Positions 38,693 through 46,725 of a DNA stretch of 64,000 bases are shown here, piece by piece. The notes under the pieces were generated by a model. The model had not been told where the DNA came from, searched no databases, and saw only the letters and a program-made list of their open reading frames with translations. Position 1 is the stretch's first letter, and each line of letters starts with the position of its first letter. Source of the DNA: Myxococcaceae bacterium. GTDB taxonomy: Bacteria; Myxococcota; Myxococcia; Myxococcales; Myxococcaceae. Made by a program: the position numbers and the translations under genes. The stretch is taken from positions 1 through 64,000 of the forward strand of contig JAEUJQ010000021.1 in the NCBI GenBank assembly GCA_016793095.1, written 5' to 3'.

Positions 38693-39781
38693 ATGCGTCG
38701 AACGCTCGCCATCATCGTCTGCCTGTTGCTCGCGACGCCGGCGGCCGCCGCGACGGCGCGCGTGAAGGAGCTCGCCCAGGTGCAGGGGGTGCGTGAGAAC
38801 GAGCTCTATGGCTACGGCCTCGTCGTCGGCCTCCAGGGCACCGGCGACACCGACCGCGTCATCGCGAGCCAGTCCATCGCGGCCATGCTGACCCGCCTCG
38901 GCCTCAAGGTGGACTCGCGCGAGGTGCGCAGCCGGAACGTCGCCGCCGTCATGGTGACCGCCCGCCTCGCCACCTACTCCCGCTCGGGCGCGCGGCTCGA
39001 CGTGAACGTCTCGTCCATCGGGAACGCCCGCAGCCTCGCCGGTGGGGTGCTGCTCCTCACGCCGCTGACCGCTGCAGACGGCCAGGTCTACGCGACGGCC
39101 CAGGGCGCGCTGCAGGTCGGCGGCTTCGACATCGGCGCGCTCGGCAACCAGGTGCGCCGGAACCAGACCAACTCAGGGCGCGTGCCGCAGGGGGCGGTGG
39201 TCGAGCGGGCCTTCACGCCGTCGCTGCCCGGCGGCCCGGTGCTGCTGGGCCTGCGCACGCCAGACCTCTCGACCGCGGTGCGCATCGCGCAGGCCATCGA
39301 GGCGAAGTACGGCGAGGGCTCGGCCACCGCGCTCGACCCCGCGGCCGTCGAGGTGAAGCCGCCCGACACCTTCAAGGGCAAGGCGCTCGTCATGCTCGCC
39401 GAGATCGAGACCCTCGAGATCGAGATCGTGCAGCGCGCGAAGGTGGTCATCAACGAACGCACCGGCACCGTCGTGGCTGGCGAGCGGGTGCGGCTGCGCG
39501 GCGCCACCGTCGCTCACGGAGGGCTCACCATCACCATCGCCCAGCGTCCGCTCATCTCCCAGCCAGCGCCCTTCAGCGCCGGGTCCACCGTCGCCACCCA
39601 GTACGCCGACCTCAACGCGCAAGAGGAGCGCGCCAACGCGGTCGCGCTCAAGTCCACGAGCACCGTCGAGGACCTCACCAAGGCCCTCAACGCCCTCAAC
39701 GTGACGCCGCGTGATCTCGTCTCCATCCTCCAGGCCCTGCACGCCGCTGGGGCCCTCGACGCCGACCTCGAGGTGCTCTGA
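38693..39781 (+). CDS. flgI: P-ring protein FlgI
   Basis: 362 aa. Signal peptide (1-19, AAA cleavage), then ARVKELAQVQGVRENELYGY and GLVVGLQGTGDTD, both hallmark segments, and a C-terminal VEDLTKALNALNVTPRDLVS. Assembles around the rod in the peptidoglycan layer. Overlaps flgJ by one base. Confidence 0.96.
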   Translation: MRRTLAIIVCLLLATPAAAATARVKELAQVQGVRENELYGYGLVVGLQGTGDTDRVIASQSIAAMLTRLGLKVDSREVRSRNVAAVMVTARLATYSRSGARLDVNVSSIGNARSLAGGVLLLTPLTAADGQVYATAQGALQVGGFDIGALGNQVRRNQTNSGRVPQGAVVERAFTPSLPGGPVLLGLRTPDLSTAVRIAQAIEAKYGEGSATALDPAAVEVKPPDTFKGKALVMLAEIETLEIEIVQRAKVVINERTGTVVAGERVRLRGATVAHGGLTITIAQRPLISQPAPFSAGSTVATQYADLNAQEERANAVALKSTSTVEDLTKALNALNVTPRDLVSILQALHAAGALDADLEVL

Positions 39782-40482
39782 TGGGGCTGCTCGACGCCGC
39801 CAGCACGCTCCAGCACGCGACCGACCCGCGCAGGGAAGCAGCGCGCGAGCTCGAGTCGCTGGTGATGAAGCAGCTCCTCGCCGCGTCCGGCGCCTTCAAG
39901 GGCGGCGAGGCGGCCGGCTCGGGCGTCTGGGCGGACCTGATGAACGAGGCGGTGGCGAGCTCCGTCACCCGTAGCGGTCAGGGGCTGGGCCTCGCGTCGA
40001 TGCTGGAACAGTCGCTGCCCGCCACCCAGCCGGCCGAGGTGATCGGGCTGGTCGCGGGAGCAGGCACCGTCAGCAGCGGCTTTGGCGCCCGCGTGGATCC
40101 GATCGACGGCAGTCGCAGCTTCCATTACGGCGTCGACGTCGCCGCCGGCGAGGGCACGCCGATCCTCGCCGCGGCAGCGGGGGTCGTCGTGCAGGCCGGA
40201 CCGCGCGGTGGCTATGGGAACGCGGTCGAGGTCGCCCACCCGGATGGCACCACCACCCTGTATGCGCACGCCTCCGACCTGTCGGTGGGCGTCGGACAGC
40301 GGGTCGAGGCGGGTCAGATTCTCGGCGCGGTGGGCCACACCGGCCGAAGCACTGGTGATCACTTGCACTTCGAGGTGAGGAGTCACGGGCAGCCCATCGA
40401 TCCACGACGTGCCCTTCAGAAATATGGCGCGCGTGTCGATGAAACGGACGGGGAGAACCCCCCGAAGGGTGGTGGCCCGTGA
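39781..40482 (+). CDS. flgJ: FlgJ rod-capping domain fused to an M23 peptidase
   Basis: 233 aa. Residues 20-80 match the FlgJ N-terminal rod-binding domain (ARELESLVMKQLLAASGAF). Residues 95-215 form a LytM/M23 zinc endopeptidase with HYGVD (H115, D119) and HLHFE (H194, H196), all catalytic ligands present. Enteric FlgJ instead carries a glucosaminidase; here local peptidoglycan opening for the rod would be by peptide-crosslink cleavage. No signal peptide, in line with export through the flagellar apparatus. Overlaps flgM by 3 bp. Confidence 0.88.
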   Translation: MGLLDAASTLQHATDPRREAARELESLVMKQLLAASGAFKGGEAAGSGVWADLMNEAVASSVTRSGQGLGLASMLEQSLPATQPAEVIGLVAGAGTVSSGFGARVDPIDGSRSFHYGVDVAAGEGTPILAAAAGVVVQAGPRGGYGNAVEVAHPDGTTTLYAHASDLSVGVGQRVEAGQILGAVGHTGRSTGDHLHFEVRSHGQPIDPRRALQKYGARVDETDGENPPKGGGP

Positions 40483-42651: not shown

Positions 42652-43533
42652 ATGCGAGTCACCGACCGCCAGCTGTTCCAGAACGCGGCCCGCGAGGCCC
42701 AGGCGTCGAAGAGCCGGGTCGAGGCCGCCCGGCGCGAGGTCTCGACGGGGCTGCGTGTCGAGAAGCCCGAAGATGACCCGGCCGCGGCGAGCCTCATCGT
42801 CCTCACCCGCCAGCAGGGGGACCGCGAGGACGCGCTCACGAAGGCGATGGGCGCAGCGTTCGACGAGCTGGGCAGCGCCGACGCCGCCCTCTCGGGCGTG
42901 AGCGACGCCCTCGCCCGGGCCCGCGAGCTGGCGGTTCAGCTCTCCAACGCGACCTACAGCGCGAACGAGCGCGCCGGCGCCGCGAAGGAGATCGACGGGC
43001 TCCGCGCCACCGTCATCGGCCTGATGAACACCAAGGCGGGCCACCGCTACGTGTTCGGCGGCTACCAGGACGGAGCGCCCCCCTTCACGCAGGCGGGCGC
43101 CTACGTCGGTGACACGGGCGTTCGGCAGGTGGAGGTGGCGCCGGGCGTCCTGGCGGACGCGTCGGTGCGCGCGGACGTGGCGGTGTCGGGCGTCGGCGGC
43201 GGCGTCGACGTGTTGGCGCTGCTGCAGACCCTCTCGACGGCCCTCACCGCGAACAACGTCGGTCAGATCCAGGGCACGCTCGACGGGCTCGACACCGGCA
43301 TCAAGCAGGTCGCCCTCGCACGCTCGACGGTCGGGAGCAGCCAGCTCGTCCTCGAAGCCGCGACCGCGGCGTCGATGACGGCCGGGCTCGCCGCCGAGAC
43401 CCGCCGCGCGAACCTGTCGGACGCCGATCTCATCGGCGCCTCGGTGCGGCTCGCCCAGGCCCAGCAGGCCCTCGACGCGTCCCTCACCGCGTCGGCGAAG
43501 AGCTTCCAGCTCTCGCTCCTCGACAAGCTGTGA
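42652..43533 (+). CDS. flgL: Hook-filament junction protein FlgL
   Basis: 293 aa. Flagellin-like N-terminus (MRVTDRQLFQNAAREAQASK, VSTGLRVEKPEDDPAAASLI) and C-terminal helix (DLIGASVRLAQAQQALDASL). It joins FlgK to the filament. GGGAGGG precedes the start. Followed after 4 bp by an uncharacterised 761-aa gene. Confidence 0.93.
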   Translation: MRVTDRQLFQNAAREAQASKSRVEAARREVSTGLRVEKPEDDPAAASLIVLTRQQGDREDALTKAMGAAFDELGSADAALSGVSDALARARELAVQLSNATYSANERAGAAKEIDGLRATVIGLMNTKAGHRYVFGGYQDGAPPFTQAGAYVGDTGVRQVEVAPGVLADASVRADVAVSGVGGGVDVLALLQTLSTALTANNVGQIQGTLDGLDTGIKQVALARSTVGSSQLVLEAATAASMTAGLAAETRRANLSDADLIGASVRLAQAQQALDASLTASAKSFQLSLLDKL

Positions 43534-43537
43534 TGCC

Positions 43538-45823
43538 ATGGCCGGGCTCGCCTACAGACTGAGGCCCACGGAGGAAGACCGCCGCGGCGATCCCCGGACC
43601 CGCCGCCTCATGTCCCTGTTCCGCGCGCGCCTGCGGGTGCTCCGGCACACCCTCGACGAGACGACGCTCGCCGCCGTCGAGGTGATGCCTGCGCTCTTCC
43701 ACGCCACCTTCCCCTGGCCGCAGCTCAAGACCGAGCCGCCCGGGGTGGAAGGCGTGCGGGCCTCGCTGCGCTGGATGAAGCTGGCGCGGCGGTTCGATCT
43801 GCCCGCCCCGGTGGGCATTCAGCGCGACCGCAGGTTGATCGCGGCGCTCCTCATCACCCCACGCAGCGACGGCCTCGACGTGCACGTCGTGCCGACGCCC
43901 AACCTCACCCCCGGCGACGAGCAGCGCATCGCCACCCGGGCCCGGGCCGTCGAGATCCTGTTCCGGCGGCGGCTGCTCCCCATCAGCATCACCCCGACCG
44001 GTCCCTCCGCGCAGCCCTACGACTCCGCGTCGCGCTCGCGGCTGATCGCCACCGGCGTGCTCCTCGCCGGCCGCCTGCCGGACGTCTTCTTCGGCCCGAC
44101 CGGCCCCACCATCGACCCGCTCGCGTCCGAGCCGTGGCGCACCGCGCCCACGCCCTTCTCTCGCGCGCTGGGGTTGCTCTCACTCGAGCCGTGGCCGAAC
44201 GGAGAGACGGCCGAGCTCGAGGAGATGGCCGACTTCGCCCACGCGGTCGACATGCCCATCTCGGCCTTCTCCGACCCCGACCTCTTCGCCGCTGCCCGCG
44301 CCGCGCTGCGCTCGCGGACCCCCGGGCTGCCGTTCGCTACCTGCGCGCTCGCCTCGACGAACCCCAGGGTGCGCCTCGCCGCGCACCGCCTCGCGCGCCA
44401 CTTCGGCCCGGCGCTGCCCCTCCCTGAGGCCCACACCGAGCCCCTCACCGCCGACGCAATCGTCACCCTGGGGCGCGGGCTCGCGCTCGAGCTCGCCCGC
44501 GCCGTGCGCCGCACCTCCGTGATCGAGGAGCAACGCCACCTGCGGCTGATCCTCTCGCATGAGGTGCTGGCCGGGGGCCTTCCGCGGGTGGTGCTCGCTC
44601 CGCTGCGCGCCGCGCTGGGCCGCGTCAAGAAGGGCAACGAGGTGCCGCCCCTCACCGAGACGACCCACCGGGGCGCCGTCGAGGTCCGGTTGCCCCAGGG
44701 AGGCGTGCTGGGCCGCGGCCGCGACCGCCCGCAGGCGTGGGTGCGCGCGCTGACCCTCGTCTCACACGTGCTCGAGCGCCCCTGGGTGCCGGCATCGGGC
44801 GCCGCGACGTGGCGTCGGATGACGACGCGACTCACCGAGCCGATCGCCCGCAAGTCGCTCGTCATCAAGGTGACGCCGCGGCCCCTCGACGGGCCCCCGT
44901 ATGATCCGCTGAACCGGGGCCGCTGGCGCGACGTCGCGTTCGACAAGTCCCTCGTCATCTCCCTGCGGCCACGCGGGCGCCCATCGGCGCGCGAGGTCGA
45001 GCCCCATGACCTGCCGCTCCTGGTGATCCGCGAGACCCTCGCGGGCAGCGCCATCGACTTCGCGGCGCATGACACCGACGCCCAGTCGGTCGAGGCGCGG
45101 CTGACGAGGCTGGCGCGACGGGTCCGCGCGACCGTGCCGCACGGGAAGACCCTGGCGGTCGAGCTCGCGGGCTTCGTCTACTCGGTGGACCAGCAGCGGA
45201 TGAAGAAGGTGCCGTTCGAGTGCTTCGCGCGGCGTCCGGTGAAGGTCGTCCTCGACTTCGAGGCACCCGATCTCGGGGCGGCGGCCTCGCAGAGCCGAGA
45301 GGTCTCCGGGGTGCCCGGGCAGCTCCAGTGCCTCGTGTGGACGGGCGACGACCCGATCGCCCACGTGCTCTACCTCGAAGAGACAGGCCTCGTGTTCCGC
45401 GAGGAGGTGCCCCTCGTCAACGTCGAGGCCCACGTGTCCGAAGCCCAGCGCCTGTTGCGGGCCGGCGACGCGTGCGCCCTCGCCGTGCGCGCCGCCGACG
45501 AGGCGGTGATGCAGGCGCTTCAGACGACGGGCGTGCCTGACGTCGCCCTGTCGATCTCAGGCAACCTGCCATTCGATCTCGAGGTCGAGCTCGACGGCGA
45601 GCGCTACGGGGGGAAGTCGAAGCTGTCGTGGGCGGCGGCGGCGCTGGCGACGACGGCGAAGTGGCCCCTCGGCACCCGCGGGCGCATCGTGATCGAGCAC
45701 CTCGACATCACCGTGGGCCGTGGAGCCGACGAACGCCCGCCGAGCGGCCTCGAGCGGCTGGTCGCGCGCGCCCTGGTCCTCCGCCGGCTCGATGCCCACA
45801 TCAGAGCCCTCACTCGCACCTAG
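43538..45823 (+). CDS. Uncharacterised 761-aa protein between flgL and fliC
   Basis: No signal peptide, membrane segment or domain that I recognise. Arg-rich (many RxxR pairs) and mixed alpha/beta by eye. A motif TP-x6-PYD-x3-R occurs twice (about residues 152-165 and 446-460), each time followed within 10-20 residues by a hydrophobic strand, which hints at an internal duplication. The last 150 residues look beta-rich and acidic. Four bp after flgL and 74 bp before flagellin, so it is co-expressed with the filament genes. A role in flagellin modification, secretion or filament assembly is conceivable; nothing in the sequence proves it. Confidence 0.85.
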   Translation: MAGLAYRLRPTEEDRRGDPRTRRLMSLFRARLRVLRHTLDETTLAAVEVMPALFHATFPWPQLKTEPPGVEGVRASLRWMKLARRFDLPAPVGIQRDRRLIAALLITPRSDGLDVHVVPTPNLTPGDEQRIATRARAVEILFRRRLLPISITPTGPSAQPYDSASRSRLIATGVLLAGRLPDVFFGPTGPTIDPLASEPWRTAPTPFSRALGLLSLEPWPNGETAELEEMADFAHAVDMPISAFSDPDLFAAARAALRSRTPGLPFATCALASTNPRVRLAAHRLARHFGPALPLPEAHTEPLTADAIVTLGRGLALELARAVRRTSVIEEQRHLRLILSHEVLAGGLPRVVLAPLRAALGRVKKGNEVPPLTETTHRGAVEVRLPQGGVLGRGRDRPQAWVRALTLVSHVLERPWVPASGAATWRRMTTRLTEPIARKSLVIKVTPRPLDGPPYDPLNRGRWRDVAFDKSLVISLRPRGRPSAREVEPHDLPLLVIRETLAGSAIDFAAHDTDAQSVEARLTRLARRVRATVPHGKTLAVELAGFVYSVDQQRMKKVPFECFARRPVKVVLDFEAPDLGAAASQSREVSGVPGQLQCLVWTGDDPIAHVLYLEETGLVFREEVPLVNVEAHVSEAQRLLRAGDACALAVRAADEAVMQALQTTGVPDVALSISGNLPFDLEVELDGERYGGKSKLSWAAAALATTAKWPLGTRGRIVIEHLDITVGRGADERPPSGLERLVARALVLRRLDAHIRALTRT

Positions 45824-45848
45824 GGAGAATCCGAGGCGGTGCCGACAA
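45821..45848 (+). promoter_or_regulatory. Possible FliA (sigma-28) promoter of flagellin
   Basis: GCCGACAA (45841-45848) matches the sigma-28 -10 box GCCGATAA at 7 of 8 bases. The upstream TAGG (45821-45824), 16 bases away, is a poor -35 match. The start would be near 45855, leaving a 40-nt leader with the fliC ribosome-binding site AGGAGA. Confidence 0.4.
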
Positions 45849-45897
45849 GAAGCGTGGAGGGGACGAACCAGTCTCCTCATCAACAGGAGAAACCCTC

Positions 45898-46725
45898 ATG
45901 GCGATGTCAATTCGAACCAACGTCTCGTCCCTCAACGCGCAGCGCAACATGTACCAGACCCAGAACCAGCTCGACTCGTCGCTGTCGCGACTGTCGAGCG
46001 GCTACCGCATCACCAAGGCCGGTGATGACGCCGCCGGCCTCGGCATCAGCGTGAACCTCGAGGCGCAGATCCGCAGCTACAACCAGGGCGCCCGCAACGC
46101 CAACGACGGCATCTCGCTGATCCAGACGGCCGAAGCGGCGCTGAACGAGCAGTCGAACATGGTCACCCGGCTCCGTGAGCTGGCGATGCAGAGCGCCTCG
46201 GACGGCATCGGCAACACCGAGCGCGGCTACATCCAGGACGAGGTCGCCGAGCAGGTCGCCGAGATCGAGCGCGTCGCGCAGGCGACCGAGTTCAACGGCC
46301 AGAAGCTCCTCGACGGCAGCGCGGCGACCCTGGACTTCCAGGTCGGCATCCGCAACGTCGCCGCGAACGACCGCATCACCGTCACCACCGTTGACGCGAC
46401 GACCGCAACGCTGGGCATCGCCGGCCTGGACCTCTCCTCGAAGGCGAACGCGCAGACGGCGCTCGGCACCCTGGACACCGCGCTGCAGACCCTCTCGTCC
46501 GCGCGCGCGACGCTGGGCGCGGCCGGCAACCGGTTCACCTCGGCGGTCGCCTCGATCCAGGCCTCGTCCGAGAGCCTCTCCGCCGCGAACAGCCGCATCC
46601 GCGACGTGGACGTGGCCGAAGAGACCAGCCGCATGGCGCGCTCGCAGGTGCTGATGCAGGCCGGCGTCTCGGTGCTCTCGCAGGCGAACCAGATGCCGCA
46701 GGTCGCCCTCAAGCTGCTCGGGTGA
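45898..46725 (+). CDS. fliC: Flagellin FliC
   Basis: 275 aa, a minimal flagellin: N-terminal D0/D1 (SIRTNVSSLNAQRNMYQTQN, LSRLSSGYRITKAGDDAAGL), a very short middle, and C-terminal D1/D0 (RIRDVDVAEETSRMARSQVL, ending VALKLLG). Surface D2/D3 domains are absent, so the filament should be thin and smooth. Only copy in the window. ATG at 45898 with AGGAGA 8 bases upstream. Confidence 0.97.
   Translation: MAMSIRTNVSSLNAQRNMYQTQNQLDSSLSRLSSGYRITKAGDDAAGLGISVNLEAQIRSYNQGARNANDGISLIQTAEAALNEQSNMVTRLRELAMQSASDGIGNTERGYIQDEVAEQVAEIERVAQATEFNGQKLLDGSAATLDFQVGIRNVAANDRITVTTVDATTATLGIAGLDLSSKANAQTALGTLDTALQTLSSARATLGAAGNRFTSAVASIQASSESLSAANSRIRDVDVAEETSRMARSQVLMQAGVSVLSQANQMPQVALKLLG

Follow-up and report, generated by a model that had tools for sequence, protein, structure and literature searches.

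Class I (CyaA-type) adenylate cyclases are recognised by the Pfam families PF12633 (Adenyl_cycl_N) and PF01295 (Adenylate_cycl), and their N-terminal domain contains a GS...SDxD metal-binding loop followed by a GGExxGS...EEFYR segment. The catalytic hallmarks of the polymerase-β nucleotidyltransferase superfamily are a GS/GG signature and three acidic residues (PMC11646218). In the few papers found, class I cyclases are tied to motility only through cAMP, as for Vibrio cholerae CyaA (PMC13079933), and literature searches of partial coverage turned up neither a class I cyclase nor a relative described in a flagellar operon. A second relevant system is the flagellin control module CsrA-FliW, which fills the flgL-fliC interval in one family (f11) of the phylum, where it lies upstream of an intact class I cyclase.

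Here, we analysed a 64,000-nucleotide stretch of a Myxococcaceae bacterium genome (G000; the stretch is referred to as the window) that encodes a large protein, termed X, between flgL and fliC. X is very probably a remote homologue or descendant of a class I adenylate cyclase that has lost the active site.

Gene context of X and the fliC promoter

The X gene starts with an ATG 4 bp past the flgL stop codon (Table 1). Pfam assignments gave the gene order FlgI, FlgJ/M23, FlgM, FlgN, FlgK, FlgL, X, FliC, FliD, FliS, which places X in the filament operon as a preceding sequence-only reading of the window had stated. The GC contents at the three codon positions (0.75/0.53/0.93) were similar to those of the neighbouring genes, and the dN/dS ratio of X between two close genomes was 0.11 versus 0.10 for FlgK. 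As judged from its sequence, the gene is real and under purifying selection. Further upstream, an M23 peptidase domain is fused to a FlgJ-like rod-binding segment (39781-40482). A 146-bp fragment of the X gene (44644-44789) recurs with 94.5% identity and a broken frame on another contig of the same genome (C19; locus L030, 1503-1647), where it sits upstream of an unrelated gene.

Table 1. Features of the X locus and intact cyclases of family f11; positions refer to the window unless a locus (L) is named.
Feature	Position	Strand	Basis
flgL, partner upstream of X	42652..43533	+	PF00669 + PF00700
X, pseudo-class-I-adenylate-cyclase-like flagellar-locus protein, 761 aa	43538..45823	+	ORF/translation; relatives in the flgL-fliC slot of 27 genomes; hhalign to class I cyclases
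Predicted N-terminal nucleotidyltransferase-like domain, about residues 40-190	43655..44107	+	hhalign of residues 1-230; AF2; VIA-align
Site of missing GS...SDxD metal-binding loop (8 residues lost), X (P0001) residues 107-114, D114 left	43856..43879	+	cyclase/X alignment
Site of missing second segment GGExxGS...EEFYR (about 15-20 residues), X (P0001) residues 156-162	44003..44023	+	cyclase/X alignment; low-pLDDT loop 156-160
C-terminal region, residues 431-761, common to flagellar-slot cyclases; GPPxDxLNRG motif of long-form proteins	44828..45820	+	hhalign; AF2
Candidate σ28-like fliC promoter, TAGG-N16-GCCGACAA, whose -35 element overlaps the stop codon of X	45821..45848	+	core conservation
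fliC, partner downstream of X	45898..46725	+	PF00669 + PF00700
Intact class I adenylate cyclases in the filament operon, one family (f11) of the phylum	L080 7894-11161; L090 4906-7842; L094 5278-7437		

The co-transcription with the filament genes proposed earlier is likely for flgL; fliC probably has, in addition, its own σ28-like promoter, which would begin at the stop codon of X. The candidate promoter scores 9 of 12 in the window, which is not beyond shuffled sequences, and its support is the conservation of the GTGCCGA core in relatives. This core is followed by a stem-loop, GAGGGGAC-GAACCA-GTCTCCTC (45857-45878). Most Myxococcaceae-type fliC leaders have a stem-loop 9-13 nt past the GTGCCGA core, with differing arm sequences. 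The stem-loop is absent from G068, which has no X, and leader hairpins are also present in cyclase-bearing genomes. RNAalifold analysis of a MAFFT alignment of the fliC leaders gave no consensus stem.

Distribution of X and linkage to flagellar genes

The first search with X hit 24 genomes out of 99, counting its source genome. Applied to 195 genomes from the phylum, a profile built from 19 X relatives (A1) retrieved 29 hits, comprising 27 X genomes, the intact cyclase of G099, and one locus in G085 (E = 4e-4) that was taken as a chance hit because this genome has no flagellin and the locus is not flagellar. Flagellin was found in 27/27 X genomes versus 51/195 genomes overall (Fisher P = 2e-19, a value that ignores shared ancestry). 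According to flagellin-domain coordinates, flgL and fliC flank X on a single contig in 18 of the 27 genomes; both flanks are visible on split contigs in three, and in the other six the contig ends on one side with one flank visible. With the exception of an additional copy in G171, no X was located outside the flgL/fliC neighbourhood in any of the 27 genomes. This strict linkage to flagellar genes strongly implies a flagellar role, which we regard as highly probable.

Occurrence in other flagellated Myxococcota, named beforehand as a check on the sequence-only reading, was thereby confirmed. Absence from related flagellar loci had been named as counter-evidence; the slot is conserved in 27 genomes, yet some flagellated relatives (e.g. 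G068, G182, G116 and G189) have neither X nor the cyclase, so X is not essential for a flagellum. A scan of named genomes found nothing with the X sequence alone and seven loci with the family alignment; named carriers include the MAGs Myxococcales bacterium SJ252, Myxococcaceae bacterium SSF57 and SSF41, and Anaeromyxobacter sp. RBG_16_69_14, which agrees with the placement in Myxococcota made by the sequence-only reading. X was not found in a plasmid collection.

In addition to X in the flagellar slot, G171 carries the second copy outside the flagellar locus, in a 1256-aa protein composed of a zinc ribbon, a Ser/Thr protein kinase and the X domain (L081, 7215-10985, minus strand). This fusion suggests that the X domain is able to work as a module for regulation or binding.

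Remote homology to class I adenylate cyclases

Searches with X gave no match at E values up to 10 in Pfam, NCBIfam or PDB sequences, and PDB sequence searches with X, the X profile or an intact cyclase returned no relative. The best match of the X family to PF12633, the cyclase N-terminal domain, was sub-threshold (E = 0.035, and 0.03 in G027); X itself lies below the curated PF12633/PF01295 cut-offs and is not assigned to the class I cyclases by Pfam. The resemblance of its N-terminus to E. coli CyaA was first noticed by eye. An hhalign comparison of profiles from 23 X proteins and six class I cyclases yielded a Prob of 93.5 (P = 2.2e-7) over 684 collinear columns, whereas shuffled or reversed control profiles gave a Prob of 0.1 or less. 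The signal was highest for residues 1-230 (Prob 95.5, P = 1.6e-8), with a collinear order of LLPxLLH, PxG, a β-strand LDxxV, a helix and AGxxP; with gammaproteobacterial CyaA alone, the match was weaker and restricted to the N-terminus (Prob 61). Residues 430-761 matched the flagellar-slot cyclases (P = 4.2e-5) and did not match the C-terminus of gammaproteobacterial CyaA, and the middle region gave no independent hhalign match to class I cyclases. The X profile also picked up the intact cyclase of G099 (E = 9.9e-6) at the site where PF12633 scores 1.6e-46. The sequence-only reading had described a large gene lacking any recognisable domain, which holds for Pfam and NCBIfam and fails at the level of profile-profile comparison; the clear match to a characterised family that was to speak against it amounts to this remote similarity, with X below the Pfam thresholds.

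Within the phylum, a PF12633 match above the cut-off was confined to three genomes (G099, G100 and G105), in each case in a gene between flgL and fliC with the order flgL-csrA-fliW-cyclase-fliC. The G099 protein matches both PF12633 and PF01295 and carries the motif MGSMGTLAQTSRSDLDLWV. X occurs in genomes without an intact class I cyclase. CsrA and FliW were not found in 20 of 20 X genomes checked, including the whole G000 genome, and X is itself neither FliW nor CsrA (no PF02623 or PF02599 match), with no sequence relation to the module. As both proteins are also absent from G068 and G182, which are flagellated and have no X, the loss of CsrA-FliW is not specific to X genomes, and X need not be its substitute.

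Loss of the active site

When 21 X proteins were aligned with six class I cyclases, the GSxxxxxQxxxSDxD loop was absent from 21/21 X proteins, most of them with an eight-residue deletion. Of this loop, the second acidic position alone remains (D114; D or E in 86% of X members). The second segment, GGExxGSxxxxLLxEEFYR with its conserved acidic residues ((E/D)EFYR variant), is deleted in all aligned X proteins, and no strictly conserved acidic residue was found elsewhere within residues 40-190. Thus, neither the GS/GG signature nor the set of catalytic acidic residues is present. Because both the GS...SDxD loop and the second acidic segment are lost, the alignment predicts with high confidence that X has no cyclase activity. 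The window genome encodes 20 class III cyclase domains above cut-off and therefore need not lack cAMP.

Predicted structure of X

An AlphaFold2 model of X built from eight sequences had a pLDDT of 84.5. The best VIA-align matches of residues ~40-190 were the MntA antitoxin, AAD(9) and AadA, with Z scores of 5.6-7.0, a Z of 7 being moderate and within the range in which, as the tool warns, a common arrangement can be matched. Most of the matches listed at Z 5 or more were polymerase-β-type nucleotidyltransferases. The N-terminal domain is accordingly modelled with a nucleotidyltransferase fold, at moderate Z; it differs from these proteins in having neither the GS/GG signature nor the Asp pair. 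A separate model of the C-terminal region (pLDDT 80.2) gave best listed matches mostly to RNase H/actin-like modules (Z 5.6 or less; Foldseek, E = 1.3e-3), which were too weak to name the fold.

The absence of glycosyltransferase and methyltransferase motifs stated earlier was reproduced in Pfam and NCBIfam (E up to 10). Neither was among the listed structural matches, and that listing excludes neither. The internal duplication postulated from the TP-x6-PYD-x3-R string, which is present twice in X of the window (residues 152 and 446), was rejected: the N- and C-terminal halves of the family profile are dissimilar (Prob 0.2), and the string is doubled only in the window protein, its closest relative keeping just the second copy and most others neither.

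Discussion

The cyclase ancestry and the loss of the active site are well supported by alignments and models. We propose that an ancestral class I adenylate cyclase seated between flgL and fliC gave rise to X. The cyclase architecture would have been retained, with the N-terminal nucleotidyltransferase-like domain, a helical middle and the C-terminal region of the flagellar-slot cyclases, while the metal- and nucleotide-binding loops were lost, so that X would make no cAMP. Presumably translated together with FlgL and working in the cytoplasm, the scaffold may have been kept to bind a protein of the filament stage (FliC, FlgL or a chaperone). In this way X may tune flagellin synthesis or export in genomes without the CsrA-FliW switch. 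A non-catalytic pseudo-cyclase acting as regulator or adaptor is, overall, the best explanation and a reasonably probable one; the narrower claim that X acts on flagellin production as regulator or adaptor is held more tentatively, at somewhat less than an even chance.

Four other readings of the locus were weighed. That the resemblance to cyclases reflects chance or a shared simple topology, with X an unrelated new family, would agree with X alone being sub-threshold and with structural Z scores below 8, but is made very improbable by the profile match, which is collinear over the full length and has clean controls, the reciprocal HMM hit, the independent structural hits and the intact cyclases in the identical slot. 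X could still be catalytic, as an altered nucleotidyltransferase that uses other residues to modify flagellin or some other protein, and both the predicted fold and the retention of D114 as D or E would fit; with the GS signature, the first Asp and the second acidic segment gone in all aligned members, and no other strictly conserved acidic residue within residues 40-190, we consider this improbable.

The remaining two alternatives concern chaperone and RNA-binding roles. That X is a chaperone or export/assembly factor dedicated to FlgL/FliC, with the cyclase scaffold reused only as a binding surface and with no regulatory task, is rather unlikely: the position between flgL and fliC, the 4-bp coupling to flgL, the strict flagellin linkage and the lost active site speak for it, whereas the usual chaperones FlgN and FliS are already encoded in the operon and known flagellar chaperones are far smaller than the 650-760 aa of X. 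A role as RNA-binding regulator of fliC via the leader hairpin would draw on the stem-loop in most Myxococcaceae-type leaders, the lack of CsrA or FliW in X genomes, and the α-β3-α order of residues 350-412 with weak dsRBD matches (Z 4.1-4.2). A dsRBD in this segment found no support in Pfam, however, short-form X proteins lack part of it, and the aligned leaders gave no consensus stem in RNAalifold and form hairpins in cyclase-bearing genomes too; we give this reading little credence.

Within the preferred reading of X as a pseudo-cyclase regulator or adaptor, one history would be that a cAMP-forming cyclase, once part of the filament operon beside csrA-fliW, lost catalysis and, with the loss of CsrA-FliW, itself became the flagellin-control protein, which would directly sense the fliC leader or proteins of the filament; as a specific scenario, this is unlikely. 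The earlier interpretation of X is partly supported: action on flagellin or filament production is plausible from operon position and conservation, and the specific task is a guess.

The analysis names a previously unannotated protein family of the flagellar locus and connects a flagellar operon with the class I adenylate cyclases. As a pseudo-enzyme and its likely active counterpart share one gene slot, the step from enzyme to non-enzyme is directly testable, and X bears on flagellin control in bacteria without CsrA-FliW.
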